Under the pieces are notes generated by a model. It made no database searches, was not told the DNA's origin, and saw only the letters and a program-made list of their open reading frames with translations. The position numbers and the translations under genes are program-made. 64,000 nt of DNA from Chitinophaga pinensis (lineage in GTDB: Bacteria; Bacteroidota; Bacteroidia; Chitinophagales; Chitinophagaceae): NCBI GenBank assembly GCA_943333125.1, contig CALQSB010000014.1, forward strand, positions 1 through 64,000. The letters are read 5' to 3'. Of this stretch, positions 19,637 through 50,469 are shown piece after piece (position 1 is the stretch's first letter; each line of letters starts with the position of its first letter).

Positions 19637-19689
19637 TAAAGCCTTTCTCGTAACGTTGTTAAAACAGCCTCATTTCCTTTCTACAATAA

Positions 19690-20031
19690 TCAAGGCCTGC
19701 CATAATTGAAAATCCATTTTTCGTAAATTTCTTTTTCTTTTTCAATTAACTTTTTGTTACGCTCTTCTTTAACAAAAATATCTTCCTTTATTATCACCGC
19801 TTTTTCTTTGTCTGCTAAAGGCAATGAATTTAGATGCTCTTTTTCGAGCAATAGAAACTGATATTCTGCAGGATATTTATGTGTCAGAATTTTAAATAAT
19901 TGTTCACTCATAATTCCCAGTCGGTCTTTATTCATCAGTCTTCTGATTTTATTAAACTCCTCTTTATATCCTGCGGGATAACTTTTGGTATTATTAATAA
20001 CGTAAGCCTGTTGTGAATGGTACTGTATCAT
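19690..20031 (-). CDS. Hypothetical protein, Lys/Glu-rich helical
   Basis: 113 residues, no signal peptide and no family I recognise. The C-terminal half is charged and helical (LEKEHLNSLPLADKEKAVIIKEDIFV, then RNKKLIEKEKEIYEKW), possibly coiled coil. It is divergent from the concanavalin-like gene at 20151. The perfect inverted repeat lies between them, so both may share one operator. Confidence 0.5.
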   Translation of the reverse strand: MIQYHSQQAYVINNTKSYPAGYKEEFNKIRRLMNKDRLGIMSEQLFKILTHKYPAEYQFLLLEKEHLNSLPLADKEKAVIIKEDIFVKEERNKKLIEKEKEIYEKWIFNYGRP

Positions 20032-20068
20032 GATTTTTTTATTTACCGTACAAAAATATTATGCCACC

Positions 20069-20119
20069 CCTCATTCTATTTGAGGACGTATATTTTTTTA
20101 CTCCTCAAATAGAATGAGG
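20069..20119. promoter_or_regulatory. Perfect 18-bp inverted repeat of palindromic arms, candidate operator pair
   Basis: CCTCATTCTATTTGAGGA (20069-20086) is repeated exactly in reverse complement at 20102-20119, 15 bp apart. Each arm is itself a dyad, CCTCA-N7-TGAGG, so this may be two operator copies rather than a simple terminator. It sits between two divergent genes. The right arm lies just upstream of CATCTTTG (20130-20137), a near match to the TAnnTTTG -7 element, and overlaps the expected -33 position. That placement fits repression. As RNA it would also make a strong 18-bp hairpin. Confidence 0.65.
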
Positions 20120-20150
20120 ACCAATTAATCATCTTTGAAAAAAGTACTTT

Positions 20151-33747: not shown

Positions 33748-34242
33748 ATGCAAGACGGTACTGTTGATAAGGAGGCTGTCATTCTTATTAGCAAAAACTC
33801 TTTCTCGGAAATTTGTATAAAGCCAGAATCCGGAATGCGTTTTCTTCGTTCATTGTGCACAATAAAAAAAGACGCCATAATCACTGCTTTTAAAGAAAAT
33901 GGATATTTTTATGAGCCGAGTTGCTTTACCATTCAAACCGAAATAAATAAACATATTTCTTTGTTTCCTTTTTTACTTAAATACACTAATCATAGTTGTG
34001 ATCCTAATGTTTTTTTTGATACCACCTCGATGCTTTTGATTGCAATAAAAGACATTGCGGCAGGAGATGAGCTTTGTTCTTTTTATCCTTCTACGGAAAA
34101 AAATATGGCTCAGTCTTTTTTTTGTAACTGCGGAAGTAAGAATTGTCTTGGAGAAATTACGGGCGCTTCTACAATTCCAAAAGACATTTTAAAAAAATAC
34201 AGACTAACCGATTTTATACGTTCTCAAATTTTTGATATCTAA
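33748..34242 (+). CDS. SET-domain protein with post-SET cysteines
   Basis: 164 residues. The C-terminal half is a recognisable SET methyltransferase core: YTNHSCDPNVFFD (the NHS/pseudoknot motif), AIKDIAAGDELCSFYPS and a post-SET zinc motif CNCGSKNCLG. The N-terminal SET strands are degenerate; the usual GxG of the cofactor site is not obvious. It opens a run of four co-directional genes (gap 11 bp to the next). It probably methylates an amine on the product or on a carrier made by the ATP-grasp enzymes. It could also be a substrate-binding or inactive partner of the fused SET domain. Confidence 0.78.
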   Translation: MQDGTVDKEAVILISKNSFSEICIKPESGMRFLRSLCTIKKDAIITAFKENGYFYEPSCFTIQTEINKHISLFPFLLKYTNHSCDPNVFFDTTSMLLIAIKDIAAGDELCSFYPSTEKNMAQSFFCNCGSKNCLGEITGASTIPKDILKKYRLTDFIRSQIFDI

Positions 34243-34253
34243 TTTTTAAATTA

Positions 34254-35423
34254 ATGACAAGAGCCGTTGCTTCTTTATTTAAATTTTCTTTACCGAAAAA
34301 TCTAAAAATAAAAGTTTGGGTACTGGCACCTGCAATAGAATCAAAGGATGAGCATATAGATTATTATTACGATTTTACACAAAGCATTGCCGAGTATACT
34401 GCTGTTTTTAAAACTTTGAATATTTTGTGGGAATGGAAAGAAATAAATATGAATAATTTTAAAGCGGTTATTAATGAGATTGAGTCAGACCGCGATACTT
34501 TCTTTCCTGTTGCACTCAATCTTTGTGATGGCGATGAAATAAATGGCGCTCCCGGGCTTTCTGTAATTAAATATCTAGAAGAAAAAGAGATTATTTATAC
34601 AGGTTCGGATGAGTTCTTTTATAATATTACCACGTCAAAAATTCCTATGAAAAAAGCTTTCGACATGGCGGGTGTAGCTAATGCGGAGTGGACTTTTTTT
34701 AGAAGTAAGGGAGATTTTAATGCAGAAGATATTTTAAATAAAACAGGAACTCCTGTTATCATTAAGCCTGCTGTATCCGGTGGAAGTATGGGGGTGGGAA
34801 TTAAAAACGTTGTAGATAATAAAGAAGAGCTAACGATATTGGTTGATAGTTTGTTGGACGGTTATAGAGGCTGGAATTTGAATGCAGATGGAATTATTGC
34901 AGAACGATTTATTGCCGGCCCGGAATTTACAGTATTTATCAGCGGCTCTTATGACCGACCAAATGATGCAGTTATTTATACGCCAGTCGAACGCGTTTTT
35001 CATCAATCTCTTCCTGACAAAGAAAAGTTTTTATCTTTTGACCGTCTTTGGGAAATTTATGAAACAGAATCTCCAATGCCCGAAGATGAGAATTTTTATG
35101 AGTATCAGTTACCGGATCCATCTTTGATTGATTCTATAAAACAATTAAGCTGGGAAGCTTATGTTGCAACTAAAGGTATGGGCTACACGAGGGTTGATAT
35201 CAGAATGGATTTAGTAACTAATAAATTGTATGTATTGGAAGTAAATGCACAATGCGGAATTAGCGAGGATGAAAATTTTACTTCTATTGGAGCAATATTA
35301 AAATTTTCAGGAAGAACTTTTTCACAACTTATTGAAGAAATTCTAAATGATGCCATTAAAAGGGGTTACTCAAAAATTATTTCTCATGTCAATAATAATA
35401 AAAAGAAGGCTATAAGATCTTAA
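34254..35423 (+). CDS. ATP-grasp ligase, D-Ala-D-Ala ligase-like
   Basis: 389 residues. The N-terminal domain (VWVLAPAIESKDEHIDYYYD, NLCDGDEINGAPGLSVIKYLEEKEI, YTGS) resembles Ddl enzymes. The ATP-grasp core follows: TPVIIKPAVSGGSMGVGIKN (glycine loop), IIAERFIAGPEFTVFISG and the metal-binding RVDIRMDLVTNKLYVLEVNAQCG. Such enzymes form amide bonds through an acyl phosphate. The 389-residue length and lack of other cell-wall genes argue against housekeeping ddl. It sits between the SET gene and the ATP-grasp-SET fusion, with gaps of 11 and 17 bp. Confidence 0.85.
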   Translation: MTRAVASLFKFSLPKNLKIKVWVLAPAIESKDEHIDYYYDFTQSIAEYTAVFKTLNILWEWKEINMNNFKAVINEIESDRDTFFPVALNLCDGDEINGAPGLSVIKYLEEKEIIYTGSDEFFYNITTSKIPMKKAFDMAGVANAEWTFFRSKGDFNAEDILNKTGTPVIIKPAVSGGSMGVGIKNVVDNKEELTILVDSLLDGYRGWNLNADGIIAERFIAGPEFTVFISGSYDRPNDAVIYTPVERVFHQSLPDKEKFLSFDRLWEIYETESPMPEDENFYEYQLPDPSLIDSIKQLSWEAYVATKGMGYTRVDIRMDLVTNKLYVLEVNAQCGISEDENFTSIGAILKFSGRTFSQLIEEILNDAIKRGYSKIISHVNNNKKKAIRS

Positions 35424-35440
35424 TTTATAGCAGGAATCAG

Positions 35441-36910
35441 ATGTCAAATGAATTGAAAAATAAAAACCAATTTGCAGTAAAAAAAGTTTGTGTTTTACTG
35501 CCCGATTATTCTACCTCCGATGTAGATTATCAACATTATGATCCTCCAAGAGACCTTTCTCTGCTCCTTCCAGAATGTGAGATCGAGCATGTATTGTTAA
35601 ATAAACTTACCACCTATAAACAGCTTAAAGAGCTCAGTAAGAAAAATTTTGACGTTTTTGTAAACCTATGCGAAGGTTATCTGGAGTGGGCCGTTCCTTC
35701 AATTGATGTTATTTATTTTCTTGAATTACTAAATCTTCCTTTTACAGGACCAAGTTCCCTTTTGTATGATCCTACAAAAGAGTTAATGAAATATGTTGCT
35801 TACACACAAGGCGTAAAAACGCCAAATTATGCTTTGATTGAAGAATTGTCTGATATCGAAACACAATGCAAGCATCTCTCCTATCCTTTGTTTGTTAAGC
35901 CATCAAAAGCTGGAGACAGTTTAGGTATTGACGAAAAATCGCTGGTATATAATTATGGCGAGCTGTTTAAAAAAATCAGTTCAATCATTGATGAATACGG
36001 GCCTTTGCTGGTGGAAGAATATATTGATGGAAGAGAATTTACTGTTATGCTGGTAAGAAATCCAGAAAGCCTTTTATCCACCAAGGTGTTCGCCCCCGTT
36101 GAGTATGTTTTTCCGGAAGGTAAAAAGTTTAAAACCTATGCTTTAAAAACATCCGAACTTCATACCGAAGCCAACAGAGCTGTCAAAGATTTTGAGCTGT
36201 CTGATAAATTAAAAACATCTGCTGAAGATATTTTTAATGGTTTTGGTGGTGTTGGATATGCAAGACTGGATTTCAGAATGAACGAACATGGTGATTTGTT
36301 TTTTCTGGAAATCAATTTTACGTGCTCCGTTTTTTACAGTGGTGGGTATGAGGGTTCTGCAGATTATATTTTAAAAATGGACGGCTGCAGTCCTGATACT
36401 TTTTTACGAATGATTATTGAAGAAGGCAGGGCAAGATATCTTCGAAACCAGAAAAAATATAAAATGAGGGGCAACTCCATCTCTGGATACGGAATCTATG
36501 CCACCAAAGATATTGAAGCCAATGAGTTGATTTTCAAGGGAGAAGAAAGATCACAACGCATTGTATCTCAATCATATGTGAATAACAACTGGACTGTTAA
36601 AGAATTAGAAAACTTTAAAAAATACGCATATCCTCTCAGTAATGAAGTATTTTTGCTCTGGGATGAAAATCCGGCGGGTTGGGCTCCTCAAAATCATAGT
36701 TGCGAGGCCAACACGGTTTATAAAGGACTTAATGTTGTTGCATTACATCCAATAAAAAAAGGCGAAGAACTAACCCTCAATTACGCTGATTTTTTAAATG
36801 ATAAAATGGAGCCCTTTAATTGTACATGTGGAAGCTTGAAATGCCAGGGTTATATTAGTGGCGTTCCTTTAAATTCTGTCAGCACAAGAGAAGAACATAT
36901 CAAGATCTAA
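35441..36910 (+). CDS. ATP-grasp ligase fused to a C-terminal SET domain
   Basis: 489 residues, one open frame. Residues about 10-345 form a Ddl-like ATP-grasp enzyme: VCVLLPDYSTSD, NLCEGYLEWAVPSIDVI, PLFVKPSKAGDSLGID, LLVEEYIDGREFTVMLV and YARLDFRMNEHGDLFFLEIN. From about 348 a SET domain follows, with its GYGIYATKDIEANELIF start, the NHSCEANT motif, GEELTLNYADF and post-SET CTCGSLKCQG. All SET landmarks look intact, unlike in the stand-alone SET gene upstream. Ligation and methylation are thus linked in one polypeptide. A likely task is joining amino acids and methylating the product; the substrate is unknown. Confidence 0.85.
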   Translation: MSNELKNKNQFAVKKVCVLLPDYSTSDVDYQHYDPPRDLSLLLPECEIEHVLLNKLTTYKQLKELSKKNFDVFVNLCEGYLEWAVPSIDVIYFLELLNLPFTGPSSLLYDPTKELMKYVAYTQGVKTPNYALIEELSDIETQCKHLSYPLFVKPSKAGDSLGIDEKSLVYNYGELFKKISSIIDEYGPLLVEEYIDGREFTVMLVRNPESLLSTKVFAPVEYVFPEGKKFKTYALKTSELHTEANRAVKDFELSDKLKTSAEDIFNGFGGVGYARLDFRMNEHGDLFFLEINFTCSVFYSGGYEGSADYILKMDGCSPDTFLRMIIEEGRARYLRNQKKYKMRGNSISGYGIYATKDIEANELIFKGEERSQRIVSQSYVNNNWTVKELENFKKYAYPLSNEVFLLWDENPAGWAPQNHSCEANTVYKGLNVVALHPIKKGEELTLNYADFLNDKMEPFNCTCGSLKCQGYISGVPLNSVSTREEHIKI

Positions 36911-37009
36911 CCCGCTGATTTCCTGTTACTACCTATTTTATTTTTTTCTTTTTGTTAAGTCAAATCCATTGGGTATTGACTATTGTTTCTGTTTTTAAAA
37001 ATAAAATTT

Positions 37010-37942
37010 ATGTATAAGCTCGATTTAATTGGAAAACTAATTAAGAGATATAGGGCAAAACTTGCTATAACATATTCTCTTTTTTGTTTGGAAATGTTGG
37101 GTACCCTTTTAAGGCCCTTTATGTTGGGTGTTGCTGTAAACGATCTGATAAAAGGAAAATATCAGGGATTAATTATTCTTTCTGTTGTTCATTTGTGTTG
37201 GTTGGTTATTAGTACGATAAGGCACATGTATGATACCAGAACTTTTTCTGCGATTTATACTTCATTGGTAACAAGATTTCTGAATCGCAGATACGGGAAA
37301 TCTGATATCTCTAAACTAAGTGCACATTCCACCCTTTCCAGAGAATTGGTGGATTTTTTAGAATCTGACCTTCCGTATATAATAGAGGCTTTTTATAATA
37401 TTGTAGGGTCTTTGATTCTCCTTTATTTTTATGAAAGCAGCGTGGTATTAATTTGTTATGCAATTCTTTTTCCGGTGATTATCATCAGCTATTTCTATGG
37501 TAAAAAAATGAGAAAATTAAGTCAGTTGAAAAACGACGAATTGGAAAACCAGGTTAGTATAATTGCAATTGGGAATAACGAATCAATACTCAGGCATTAT
37601 AACAAGCTACGTAACCTTCAGATTAAAATATCAGATAAAGAGGCTTGGAATTTTGGAATAATAGAAATGCTGGTATTAATTGTAATAGGCGGTTCTTTGA
37701 TTATTTCTTCAAACATGTTTGGCACTACAATTCTGGCTGGAAATTTAATTGGTATTTATAATTACATTTTAAAATTTGTATCTGGCCTTGATACTATTCC
37801 CTATACCGTTCAGCGATTTTCATTACTTAAGGATATAATAAAAAGAATTGAACTTCAGTCTGACGATATTTCTGAGTCCTATGATTATTCAGATGACACA
37901 AAAGAAAAATATCGTCAAGGCGTTTTAAAACTCAGGGCATAG
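37010..37942 (+). CDS. ABC-transporter-type six-helix membrane domain without ATPase
   Basis: 310 residues from the ATG at 37010; the track start at 36983 is a TTG that adds nine residues. The protein resembles the transmembrane domain of type I ABC exporters: an amphipathic lead (LIGKLIKRYRAKLAITYSLFCLEML), several long hydrophobic helices and the coupling-helix pattern YGKKMRKLSQLKNDELENQVS. It ends with KYRQGVLKLRA; no Walker A, signature or Walker B follows. No ATPase gene is next to it. It lies 99 bp after the ATP-grasp-SET gene and may export the product, using an ATPase encoded elsewhere, or act as a scaffold. Confidence 0.7.
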   Translation: MYKLDLIGKLIKRYRAKLAITYSLFCLEMLGTLLRPFMLGVAVNDLIKGKYQGLIILSVVHLCWLVISTIRHMYDTRTFSAIYTSLVTRFLNRRYGKSDISKLSAHSTLSRELVDFLESDLPYIIEAFYNIVGSLILLYFYESSVVLICYAILFPVIIISYFYGKKMRKLSQLKNDELENQVSIIAIGNNESILRHYNKLRNLQIKISDKEAWNFGIIEMLVLIVIGGSLIISSNMFGTTILAGNLIGIYNYILKFVSGLDTIPYTVQRFSLLKDIIKRIELQSDDISESYDYSDDTKEKYRQGVLKLRA

Positions 37943-41448: not shown

Positions 41449-41464
41449 TGTTCCACGTGGAACT
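41449..41464. other. parS: parS centromere site 1
   Basis: TGTTCCACGTGGAACT contains the perfect palindrome GTTCCACGTGGAAC, matching the ParB-binding consensus (TGTTNCACGTGNAACA) in 15 of 16 positions. It lies in the 60-bp gap between ybeY and mnmG. ParB loads here to form the partition complex that segregates newly replicated origins. Confidence 0.85.
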
Positions 41465-41480
41465 TTTTGATGAAAAAATA

Positions 41481-41927
41481 TTACGTTCCACGTGGAACAT
41501 TTTGATATTTAAAAAACTTTGCTAAATAAAAATCTTCTTTTGCTCTAATTTTTGTTTGTTGAGATTTTGTTTTGTCTTTGTAACCACAAAGATGTAAAAC
41601 CCCATGAAATATAACACGGTGTAACTCACTCTTTATACTAGATTGATAATCAATACTATTCTGCCTAATTCGTTCTAAACTAATATAAATTTCAGCAGGT
41701 TTAACCGTGCTTTTATTGTTGGATAAATCAAAAGTAATTACATCGGTTAAATAATTATGATTTAAATAGGTTTTATTAATTTCCAATAAATAAAGATCAG
41801 AACAAAATATGATATTTAAATCGTTTATGTGCCCTTTTTCTGTCTTTATGATATTACCAATGAACAACTTAAGTTGTTTTCTGTTTTTTAAATGAGTTGG
41901 TAATAAATAAAAAAAATGTGTAGTCAT
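41481..41927 (-). CDS. ybeY: Endoribonuclease YbeY (rRNA maturation)
   Basis: 148 residues. The metal site HGVLHLCGYKD matches the HGxLHLxGYxH signature, with the third His replaced (KDK), as I recall from other Bacteroidota members. YLTDVITFDLS and PAEIYISLERI are conserved. YbeY processes 16S rRNA 3' ends and takes part in ribosome quality control. Its C-terminus NVPRGT is encoded by a parS site. It is first in an apparent ybeY-mnmG-cupin operon and divergent from the FeoA-like gene. Confidence 0.9.
   Translation of the reverse strand: MTTHFFYLLPTHLKNRKQLKLFIGNIIKTEKGHINDLNIIFCSDLYLLEINKTYLNHNYLTDVITFDLSNNKSTVKPAEIYISLERIRQNSIDYQSSIKSELHRVIFHGVLHLCGYKDKTKSQQTKIRAKEDFYLAKFFKYQNVPRGT
41484..41499. 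other. parS: parS centromere site 2, inside the end of ybeY
   Basis: CGTTCCACGTGGAACA is the same palindrome, 35 bp from site 1. It falls on the last codons of ybeY, so the protein ends NVPRGT before its stop. Overlap with a coding end means the site is kept for binding and the protein tail tolerates it. Confidence 0.85.
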
Positions 41928-46770: not shown

Positions 46771-47784
46771 TTACAAACCGTATTGAGCACTTATTTCTAA
46801 CATTATTTCAATTGGTTTTCTAGCTGCATTTAAAAGTTCAGGAGACATTAATATTTCCGGAGTTTCATAATTTAAACAAATAAATAATTTTTCAAGTGTG
46901 TTTAACTTCATATATGGACAATTATTACAGGCGCAGGAATTATTGGGTGGCGCAGGGATAAAAGTTTTGTGTGGATTTAATTTTTGCATTTGATGCAGAA
47001 TCCCGGTCTCTGTAGCCACAATAAATATTTTTGAGGGATTATGTTGGGTAAACTTTAAAAGAGCCGTAGTGCTGCCTATATAGTCTGCCAGAGCTAATAC
47101 ATTCTCTTCGCATTCGGGATGTGCAATAAATTTAGCATCTGGATGTCTTATTTTTAATTTGGTGATTTTCTCTAAACTAAAAATTTCATGAACCATACAT
47201 GAGCCATTCCATAACAACATATTTCTTCCGGTTATTTTGTTGATATAAGCTCCAAGGTTCTTATCAGGTGCAAAAATTATAGGTTGACTTATAGGTAGAC
47301 TATCAACGATTATTTTTGCATTTGATGAAGTGCAAATTATATCACTAAGAGCTTTTATTTCTGAACTGCAGTTGATATAAGTAATTATTTTATGATCAGG
47401 ATGTTTCTCTTTGAATATTTTAAATAAGGGAGTTGGAGCTGAATCACTTAAAGAACAACCCGCTTTTAAATCTGGTAATAAAACTTTTTTTTGAGGATTT
47501 AAAATTTTAGCAGTTTCTGCCATAAAATGAACACCAGCAAAAACTATTATATCTGCCGTTGTCTTTGCTGCATATTGGGCTAATCCTAAACTGTCGCCTA
47601 TAAAGTCAGCTATATCCTGTATATCTGATTCCTGATAATAGTGGGCCAGAATTATTGCGTTCTTTTCTTTTTTTAATTTATTTATTTCTTCAAATAAATC
47701 AAGATTAGGATTTAAATCGACATCATAAAAACCATTATTCTTTATTGAATTAATTTTTAAAATTTCATTGTTAATATCTACCAT
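46771..47784 (-). CDS. nadA: Quinolinate synthase
   Basis: 337 residues. NadA condenses iminoaspartate with dihydroxyacetone phosphate using a 4Fe-4S cluster, the second step of de novo NAD synthesis. Seen: [22 protein letters not shown] near the N-terminus, the cluster Cys candidates in [18 protein letters not shown] and the terminal CACNNCPYM, and [16 protein letters not shown]. It borders the putative origin region (552 bp before the divergent PpiD-like gene). nadB and nadC are not in the window. Confidence 0.94.
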
Positions 47785-47844
47785 AATATGTATTAATACT
47801 ATTTATTTATATAATCACCTATTACTACTATGTCTGTTAATAAG

Positions 47845-47885
47845 TGGAAAATTTAATTTTTTAGCAGTTGGAAAATTTAATTTTT
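47845..47885. repeat. 17-nt direct repeat in the candidate origin
   Basis: TGGAAAATTTAATTTTT occurs at 47845-47861 and again at 47869-47885, 24 bp apart. It sits in the most AT-rich part of the gap and could act as an unwinding or iteron-like element. Confidence 0.65.
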
Positions 47886-48277
47886 GAACTTATTAACTTT
47901 AATAAACACGAAATTAACATTATTGTTATTTTTTATTTACCTGATTTACGCTATTCATTAGGGTTATATAAATTATTTATAAACAAACGTTGATAAATTA
48001 ACACGTGAATAATTTTTTTTGTATAAAAATAAAAATCAGTGTTAATGAGAGTAGGATAACTTGTCACTAAAATCTATAAATAAGCCCAATGACTATTATG
48101 GGTCTTATTATTTCACATTTTATCCTAATTATTCTTTTAAAAAATGCCAGATATCCACAAAAATTTGAAATATTCACATTGATGCTGTGGAAACTAAAAA
48201 AAAGGAAAAAAAAGCACCTCAAAAAAAAGTTTTTTGGAAAATGACTAATAATTAATCATTTATGAGGTTATCCACAG

Positions 48278-48308
48278 TTTGTTAATACCCTTTTTTATAC
48301 TATTTTTG
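48278..48308 (+). promoter_or_regulatory. Consensus Bacteroidota promoter for the PpiD-like gene
   Basis: TTTG (48278-48281), exactly 19 bp, then TATTTTTG (48301-48308) match TTTG-N19-TAnnTTTG. The ATG follows 28 bp later. The perfect DnaA box ends one base before the -33 element, so DnaA binding might affect this promoter. Confidence 0.7.
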
Positions 48309-48336
48309 CTTTCCCTTAAACTTAATATAAAGTTAT

Positions 48337-50469
48337 ATGCAAATTATTCAAAGTATTCGTGAAAAAGGAGCCGCAATTGTAATTGTTGTAATTGCGCTAA
48401 GCTTGATTGGTTTTATTTTAATGGATGCCAAGCAAGGCGGAGGCAGTCTTTTTGGTTCTTTATCAAATAATGTAGGAAAAGTAAATGGAGAAACCATTGA
48501 TCTGATTGACTTTAATAAAAAAGTTAAAGAAGCAGAAGATATGCAGGCACAACGTTCCGGACAACGTCCAACGGGAACACAAACCTATCAAAGCAGAGAC
48601 CAGGTATGGAATCAACTAGTTGCAGAAAAAGTATTTTTCAATGAAGCAAAAAAATTAGGAGTTGAATTTACTGCAAAAGAGCTTTCCTATATATTATTAA
48701 GCAATGATGCTTCAAACCCATTTTTACAAGAGCAATCACTTAAAGATTCAATTACCGGAAAACTTGATGTTAAAAAAGCACAAACAGCTTTAAACAACAT
48801 AAAGAAATTTAAAGGAGAGCAAAAGGATCAAGTAAATTCACAAATTGTTGATCCTTTAAAATTAAATAATACGGTTGCAAAATATTCTGCATTATTAAAT
48901 GCAAGCGCATATTATCCAAGCTGGATGGAGAAAAAAGAAACTGCAGAAAATTCTGCCTTTTCTTCAATATCATTTGTAACGGTTCCTTTTTCTGAAATTT
49001 CGGACAGCACGGTAAAGGTTACAGACGAAGAAATTAATAGTTATACAAGCAAACATAAAGAACAATTTAAGCAAGAGGAAGGAAGAAATATATCTTATGT
49101 TTCATTTAGTCAATTGCCTTCTAAAGAAGACAGCGCAACCGTTTACAATGGCTTACAGGAATTAAAAAATTCATTTCAGGCAGACACCAACACAATAGCA
49201 TTTGTTGCCAGAAATACATCAACAATTGATTTTAATGATGACTATACAGTAAAATCAAAACTTAACCAGGCTAATACAGATACCCTATCTAAGTTGGCTA
49301 TAGGAAATGTATTTGGGCCTTATGTAGATAAAACAAATTTTGTGTTGGCAAAAATGATTGCAACAAAACAATTACCCGATAGTGTAAACGCCAGACATAT
49401 ATTAATCGGAACAAACGAACCAAGTACCGGTAATCCTACTATGCCAGATTCAACAGCTAAAAAACTTGCTGATAGTGTTTATAATGCAATACTTGCTGGT
49501 GCAGATTTTACCCTTATGGCATTGAAATATTCAACGGATCAAGGTAGTAAAATTAAGGGTGGTGATTTAGGAACTTTTGCATACGGAACAATGGTTCCTG
49601 AATTTAATGAATTTTGTTTTACAAAATCTTCGGGTTCAAAGGGTGTGGTTAAAACTCAGTTTGGATATCATATAATAGATTTGATTAGTCAGAAAGATTT
49701 TAAAACGGCTTATAAAATTGCTTATGTAGGTAAAGAAATATCTGCAAGTGATGTTACCGTAAATAAATCAAGTTTGGAAGCCACAAAAGCATCTGCAGAA
49801 AAAAACAAAGAAGGACTTGAGAAGTTTATTGCAAAAAACGGACTTAGTCTGACCTCTGTTCCTAATTTAATCAAAGAGAATGATTATCAGATTGGAGCGC
49901 TGCAAGATGCAAGAGGTTTGGTAAGATGGGCATTTGAGGCAAAAAAAGGGAATATTAGCGAGCCCTTCAGTATTGGTGATCAGTTCATTGTTGCTGTTTT
50001 AGATAAAATAAATGATAAAGGCGTTCAGGATGCAACAGCTGCAAGACCAGGATGTGAAGCCATTATTAGAAATAACAAAAAGGCTGAATTAATTAAGAAA
50101 AAAATTGGCAGCAATCCAACATTAGAATCTACTGCATCTGCATATGGTAAAACGGTACAATCTGCAGGAGCGGATTCAACAATTACCTTTAATTCACAGA
50201 TAATTAATGGTGTTGGAATGGAATCTAAATTAATTGGCGCATCATTTAATAAAGAATATCAAACTAAAGCCTCTCCATTAATTGATGGAACAACGGGGGT
50301 TTTTATTGTAAAAGTTAATTACATCCAGAACAAAACAGCAGAGACTTCAGAAGCAATAGCTCAGCGAGTAACTTCAAAAATAAGCAGCATAAGAAGCCAA
50401 ACCAATGGCTGGTATGAGGGTTTAAGAAAACAAGCTGATATAGTAGACGAAAGAAGTAAACATTTCTAA
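48337..50469 (+). CDS. PpiD/SurA-like peptidylprolyl isomerase, membrane-anchored foldase
   Basis: 710 residues. An N-terminal membrane anchor (GAAIVIVVIALSLIGFILMDA) leads into a SurA-N-like chaperone domain (about 40-240). Then comes at least one parvulin rotamase domain (about 345-455) with NARHILIGTNEP, ADFTLMALKYSTDQGSKIKGGDLGTF, GTMVPEFNEFCF and TQFGYHIIDL. The layout matches the PpiD-type foldase of Bacteroidota, which helps outer-membrane protein folding in the periplasm. It has a consensus promoter in the candidate origin region and the DUF2480 gene follows past a terminator. Confidence 0.88.
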   Translation: MQIIQSIREKGAAIVIVVIALSLIGFILMDAKQGGGSLFGSLSNNVGKVNGETIDLIDFNKKVKEAEDMQAQRSGQRPTGTQTYQSRDQVWNQLVAEKVFFNEAKKLGVEFTAKELSYILLSNDASNPFLQEQSLKDSITGKLDVKKAQTALNNIKKFKGEQKDQVNSQIVDPLKLNNTVAKYSALLNASAYYPSWMEKKETAENSAFSSISFVTVPFSEISDSTVKVTDEEINSYTSKHKEQFKQEEGRNISYVSFSQLPSKEDSATVYNGLQELKNSFQADTNTIAFVARNTSTIDFNDDYTVKSKLNQANTDTLSKLAIGNVFGPYVDKTNFVLAKMIATKQLPDSVNARHILIGTNEPSTGNPTMPDSTAKKLADSVYNAILAGADFTLMALKYSTDQGSKIKGGDLGTFAYGTMVPEFNEFCFTKSSGSKGVVKTQFGYHIIDLISQKDFKTAYKIAYVGKEISASDVTVNKSSLEATKASAEKNKEGLEKFIAKNGLSLTSVPNLIKENDYQIGALQDARGLVRWAFEAKKGNISEPFSIGDQFIVAVLDKINDKGVQDATAARPGCEAIIRNNKKAELIKKKIGSNPTLESTASAYGKTVQSAGADSTITFNSQIINGVGMESKLIGASFNKEYQTKASPLIDGTTGVFIVKVNYIQNKTAETSEAIAQRVTSKISSIRSQTNGWYEGLRKQADIVDERSKHF

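Follow-up and report, generated by a model that had tools for sequence, protein, structure and literature searches.

A probable chromosomal replication origin between nadA and ppiD in a Chitinophagaceae genome

The intergenic region between nadA and ppiD

The window analyzed here is a stretch of 64,000 nucleotides, bases 1-64000 of contig C14 in the draft MAG of a Chitinophagaceae bacterium (2.85 Mb, 85 contigs). The closest named relatives are Chitinophagaceae metagenome bins with protein identity up to 82%, and Ferruginibacter bins are slightly more distant. A gap at 47785-48336 separates the divergent genes nadA and ppiD-like (Table 1). In the preliminary description this gap was proposed as the chromosomal replication origin. 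Its AT-richness is evident (GC content 22% vs 34% for the window), while its description as the only long intergenic gap is overstated, since others exist (e.g., 19637-20150).

The perfect DnaA box, the promoter next to it, and the exact 17-nt direct repeat were all recovered as described. Near matches to the DnaA box are also present, and the reported number of four depends on the cut-off: one site has 1 mismatch (ATATCCACA) and ten have 2. Boxes with ≤1 mismatch number 2 in the gap, vs 0.19 expected from shuffles of the gap (P 0.0135), and the corresponding P for a perfect box is 0.006. Taken alone, the gap is only moderately unusual. The 17-nt direct repeat together with its flanks constitutes a 26-nt inverted repeat (85%, 47836-47861/47872-47897) adjoining the module at the nadA end. 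Upon reading of the gaps of relatives, the direct repeat itself is not conserved there, and the inverted repeat is not obvious.

Table 1. Features of the candidate origin and its surroundings.
Feature	Position	Strand	Basis
Two parS-like palindromes, 41449-41464 and 41484-41499, mnmG/ybeY junction	41449-41499		Motif search; enrichment in relatives
nadA, quinolinate synthase, origin-flanking	46771-47784	-	Pfam PF02445, 1.3e-119
Putative AT-rich duplex unwinding element (DUE), 86% AT, from nadA start to trios	47785-47819		Sequence; columns conserved in alignment of 40 family gaps
DnaA-trios TAT-TAC-TAC-TAT	47820-47831	+	Pattern unique in genome; trio definition PMC8287927
Spacer GTC, trios to first box; family GGC/GGG	47832-47834	+	Alignment
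Tandem weak DnaA boxes TTATTAACA 47835-47843, TTTTCCACT 47843-47851, 2 mismatches each; family consensus TGTGRATATGTGGATAA	47835-47851	-	Box scan, alignment
17-nt direct repeat TGGAAAATTTAATTTTT x2, exact, 47845-47861 and 47869-47885	47845-47885		Repeat search
Decayed second box block, here CTTATTAACTTTAATAAACACGAAATTAACATT; family consensus TTATCCAC..TTATCCACA...AATTAACATT	47889-47925	+	Alignment
Weak boxes TTATCAACG 47988-47996, TTATTCACG 48004-48012; first at conserved GTtgATaA block	47988-48012	-	Box scan, alignment
Third box cluster: ATATCCACA 48151-48159, ATATTCACA 48170-48178, GTTTCCACA 48186-48194 (-)	48151-48194		Box scan, alignment
Perfect DnaA box TTATCCACA; conserved as TT[AT]TCCACA immediately upstream of ppiD promoter	48268-48276	+	Box scan, alignment
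Putative ppiD promoter: TTTG 48278-48281, N19, TATTTTTG 48301-48308; Bacteroidota TTTG/TANNTTTG type	48278-48308	+	Sequence; conserved columns
ppiD-like peptidyl-prolyl isomerase (SurA_N_2 + rotamase), origin-flanking	48337-50469	+	Pfam PF13623, PF13616

Public MAG records bearing ppiD include L038 titled "Streptomyces griseus" (81% identity), L049 titled "Chitinophaga pinensis" (72%), and L078 titled "Phycisphaerales" (35%). The first title is clearly a mislabel, and the other two are doubtful. Elsewhere in the window, 33748-37942 encodes a SET-domain protein, a D-Ala-D-Ala-ligase-like ATP-grasp protein, an ATP-grasp/SET fusion, and an ABC transporter membrane protein. SET domains are uncommon among bacteria.

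A trio-type module at the nadA end

The end of the gap adjoining nadA reads TAT-TAC-TAC-TAT-GTC-TGTTAATAAGTGGAAAA on the + strand (47820-47851), that is, 5'-trios, a short spacer, and tandem boxes (as TGTGGATAA)-3'. The unwinding module of Bacillus subtilis consists of boxes, a spacer, and trios with 3'-GAT-5' next to the boxes (PMC8287927). The published rule for searching such a module (BUS) is a DnaA box with ≤2 mismatches located ≤16 bp from ≥3 NAN trios (PMC8287927). The module in the window satisfies this rule: the box at 47835-47843 has 2 mismatches and is separated by 3 nt from the four trios at 47820-47831.

The trios of the family consensus are TAT-TAC-TAT-TAG, with a proximal 3'-GAT-5'. 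The window copy does not have this proximal trio, with TAT vs TAG in the consensus; 3'-GAT-5' is the commonest proximal trio but is not obligatory, and hence is non-defining for BUS. The alignment indicated that the window copy is weaker than those of its relatives, with proximal TAT instead of TAG, the spacer GTC instead of GGC, and decayed boxes in the second block. The same TAT-GTC variant was also found from L045.

The part predicted to be functional consists of the trio/box module (47785-47851) plus the box array to about 48200, and not the perfect box at 48268, on which the preliminary description had anchored the origin.

Conservation across the family and order

The trio motif was represented by the pattern TAYTAYTAYTANGNNTGTKNAT, derived from the first relatives read; members of that genus therefore match by construction, while those of other genera do not. 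In the genome of the window the pattern matches once, also when one mismatch is permitted. It was found once each in 27 of the 198 genomes of the order and in 24 of the 35 genomes of the family, vs 0 matches in the 198 genomes for the reversed pattern used as a control. All seven named relatives, including Niastella, Longitalea, and Terrimonas, contain exactly one copy. Seven of the 11 family genomes lacking an exact match show one at 1 mismatch, where the control also matches. Because of these control matches, the 1-mismatch search over the order was not taken as evidence outside the family. One pattern match, in G024 (L100), resembles coding sequence and was taken as chance.

The same gap between nadA and ppiD was recognized across the family, in records of Ferruginibacter, Niastella, Longitalea, Terrimonas, Puia, and Hydrotalea. 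Among 43 nadA/ppiD gaps, 155 boxes with ≤1 mismatch were counted vs 9.1 expected from dinucleotide shuffles, and 24 perfect boxes vs 0.1; as the sequences are related, these numbers represent an enrichment without a formal probability. The counts and the alignment answer positively the question, raised at the outset, of whether the DnaA boxes are conserved in close relatives. Six blocks appear in a fixed order in the alignment of family gaps. The best conserved block is CCTATTACTATTAGGGCTGTGAATATGTGGATAA, and an AT-rich stretch lies between it and nadA. In most family genomes the trio block is positioned just upstream of nadA.

Synteny is broken at six loci. ppiD is absent in the stretches covered of L083, L085, L088, and L096, and is 3-4 kb away in L040 and L072. 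At all six, the trio region stays with nadA, as does the box array in most, and in L040 ppiD retains the promoter-proximal box only. The element is also present beyond the family, with its form preserved: in L098, from a sister family, it lies beside other genes with neither nadA nor ppiD, and in L099, from another family, it lacks nadA and is found close to ybeY and mnmG, two parS-like sites lying 1.3 kb off.

GC skew and parS-like sites

The chromosomes of relatives were sampled in stretches for GC skew. In the complete genome G197 (4.90 Mb), positive skew extends from the motif as far as 0.45 of the circle, and the remainder is negative. At closer range, nine of nine samples are negative on the left of the motif and nine of nine positive on the right, and the cumulative minimum in a contiguous 216 kb lies 8.4 kb from the motif. 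The complete genome G176 (3.72 Mb) has its skew minimum at the motif, and its maximum falls about 0.53 of the way round the circle. In two same-genus contigs (G088:C3 and G017:C11), negative skew gives way to positive close to the motif, while the skew of G164, from a sister family, is too weak to tell. The GC-skew minimum, suggested earlier as a check, thus falls at the orthologous site in both of these complete genomes, with agreement from two same-genus contigs. dnaA is distant from the motif, by 1.94 Mb in G197 and 0.86 Mb in G176, and is on a different contig in the genome of the window.

The raw skew of the window is positive on the left of the gap and negative on the right, opposite to the expectation for an origin. 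It was rejected as a test since it is dominated by gene direction. At third codon positions, the skew is 0.020 on leading vs 0.006 on lagging genes on the left, and 0.000 vs -0.050 on the right; corrected for gene direction in this way, the window skew weakly runs the expected way. The contrast is clear in G197, with about +0.05 to +0.08 for leading vs -0.07 to -0.08 for lagging.

The parS sites claimed about 6 kb away correspond to two parS-like palindromes 6.3 kb from the trio motif. Each is 1 mismatch from the near-palindrome TGTTNCACGTGNAACA, and these two are the only sites with ≤1 mismatch in their own genome; with their position close to the candidate origin, they are designated as putative parS. 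Of 20 motif neighbourhoods, 12 contain such sites at a distance of up to 10 kb, vs 1 of 80 remote stretches (Fisher P 1.4e-9). The sites in the window overlap the end of the ybeY reading frame, and parS-like sites are seen at the same mnmG/ybeY junction in L099.

The perfect box and the ppiD promoter

The perfect box at 48268 looks like part of a promoter unit of ppiD. When synteny breaks, the trios remain beside nadA, and a promoter-proximal box can be retained by ppiD; the perfect box is therefore probably a DnaA site on the ppiD promoter, to which it belongs more than to the origin core.

A cluster of three perfect DnaA boxes was found at 4551-4652 of contig C30 (L031), where it precedes mraZ and the division/cell-wall operon. 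In four complete relatives (L204-L207), mraZ is likewise preceded by 3-5 boxes with ≤1 mismatch within about 330 bp. The conserved box directly adjoins the -33 element of ppiD and can accompany this gene away from the origin, and a box cluster precedes mraZ; it is conceivable, if rather doubtful, that DnaA of Chitinophagaceae also regulates envelope genes; initiation and envelope growth would then share one switch.

Interpretation and alternative explanations

The gap between nadA and ppiD is very probably the chromosomal origin oriC, in support of the original proposal. It contains the sequence elements described above, with a conserved box cluster above chance; the motif is present in one copy per chromosome, the skew switches sign at the orthologous site in relatives, where its cumulative minimum lies, and the parS-like sites are in proximity. 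In the source species, DnaA would bind an array of mostly weak boxes spanning about 400 bp, and a DnaA filament would extend from the tandem boxes at 47835-47851 onto the + strand trios at 47820-47831. The AT-rich 47785-47819 would be opened and the helicase loaded there, leading to the start of bidirectional replication. ParB bound to the parS-like pair at a distance of 6 kb would take care of origin segregation, and through the box at 48268 DnaA probably also acts on the ppiD promoter.

One alternative is that the family origin is located here, but has decayed in the source species and been replaced by another origin. The boxes and the proximal trio, weaker than in relatives, and the uninformative window skew point in this direction, but the trio motif still fits the family pattern in a single copy, the two best parS-like sites of the genome are adjacent, and the variant is shared with L045. 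Such a replacement is very improbable.

Even slighter is the chance that the gap serves in DnaA titration or is regulated by DnaA (datA/DARS-like) and that replication really begins at another place, such as the mraZ box cluster, which contains more perfect boxes than the gap and has counterparts in the four relatives. The distance between mraZ and the motif is 0.39 Mb in G197, 0.82 Mb in G176, and 0.60 Mb in G125, mraZ is away from the skew switch in G197 and G176, and no trio motif is found on C30. The mraZ cluster was rejected as an origin by its distance from the motif and the skew switch in complete relatives. Equally hard to credit is a regulatory leader of nadA (e.g., a riboswitch or 5' UTR element) combined with the ppiD promoter and without a replication role: the gap is indeed a divergent promoter region, and most family genomes have the trios immediately before nadA, but it has no Rfam match, L098 and L099 have the element but not nadA beside it, DnaA boxes are strongly enriched, and the skew minimum, which already contradicts this reading, is found at the element together with parS-like sites.

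With the gap read as oriC, a widespread family gains a sequence-defined origin far from dnaA; little published origin work was found for its phylum. The literature searches gave no paper dealing with this origin, and the origins of relatives may already be included in DoriC as predictions. The family pattern marks the origin in draft genomes, which is of use for growth-rate estimates from metagenomes and for mini-chromosome or DnaA tests, and the origin proper is set apart from the neighbouring ppiD promoter box.

Comparison with known origins

The module resembles the BUS of B. subtilis (PMC6669920, PMC8287927) in its tandem boxes, short spacer, trios with a middle adenine on the strand whose 3' to 5' direction points away from the boxes, and AT-rich DNA, and in the proximal 3'-GAT-5' of most family members. 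It differs in that the candidate origin in the window is not beside dnaA, the first trio is 3'-TAT-5', and the putative module has a spacer that is not GC-rich and two mismatches in each box. The box orientation also agrees with that of the B. subtilis module. The candidate is similar to Escherichia coli oriC in being separated from dnaA and beside housekeeping genes, with mnmG/gidA near each of them (6-8 kb here). In contrast to the DUE/box layout of E. coli, the element in the window is trio-type. With its box cluster, AT-rich intergenic stretch, and, at the orthologous site in relatives, GC-skew minimum, it is also like the origins predicted by DoriC/Ori-Finder (PMC6323995).
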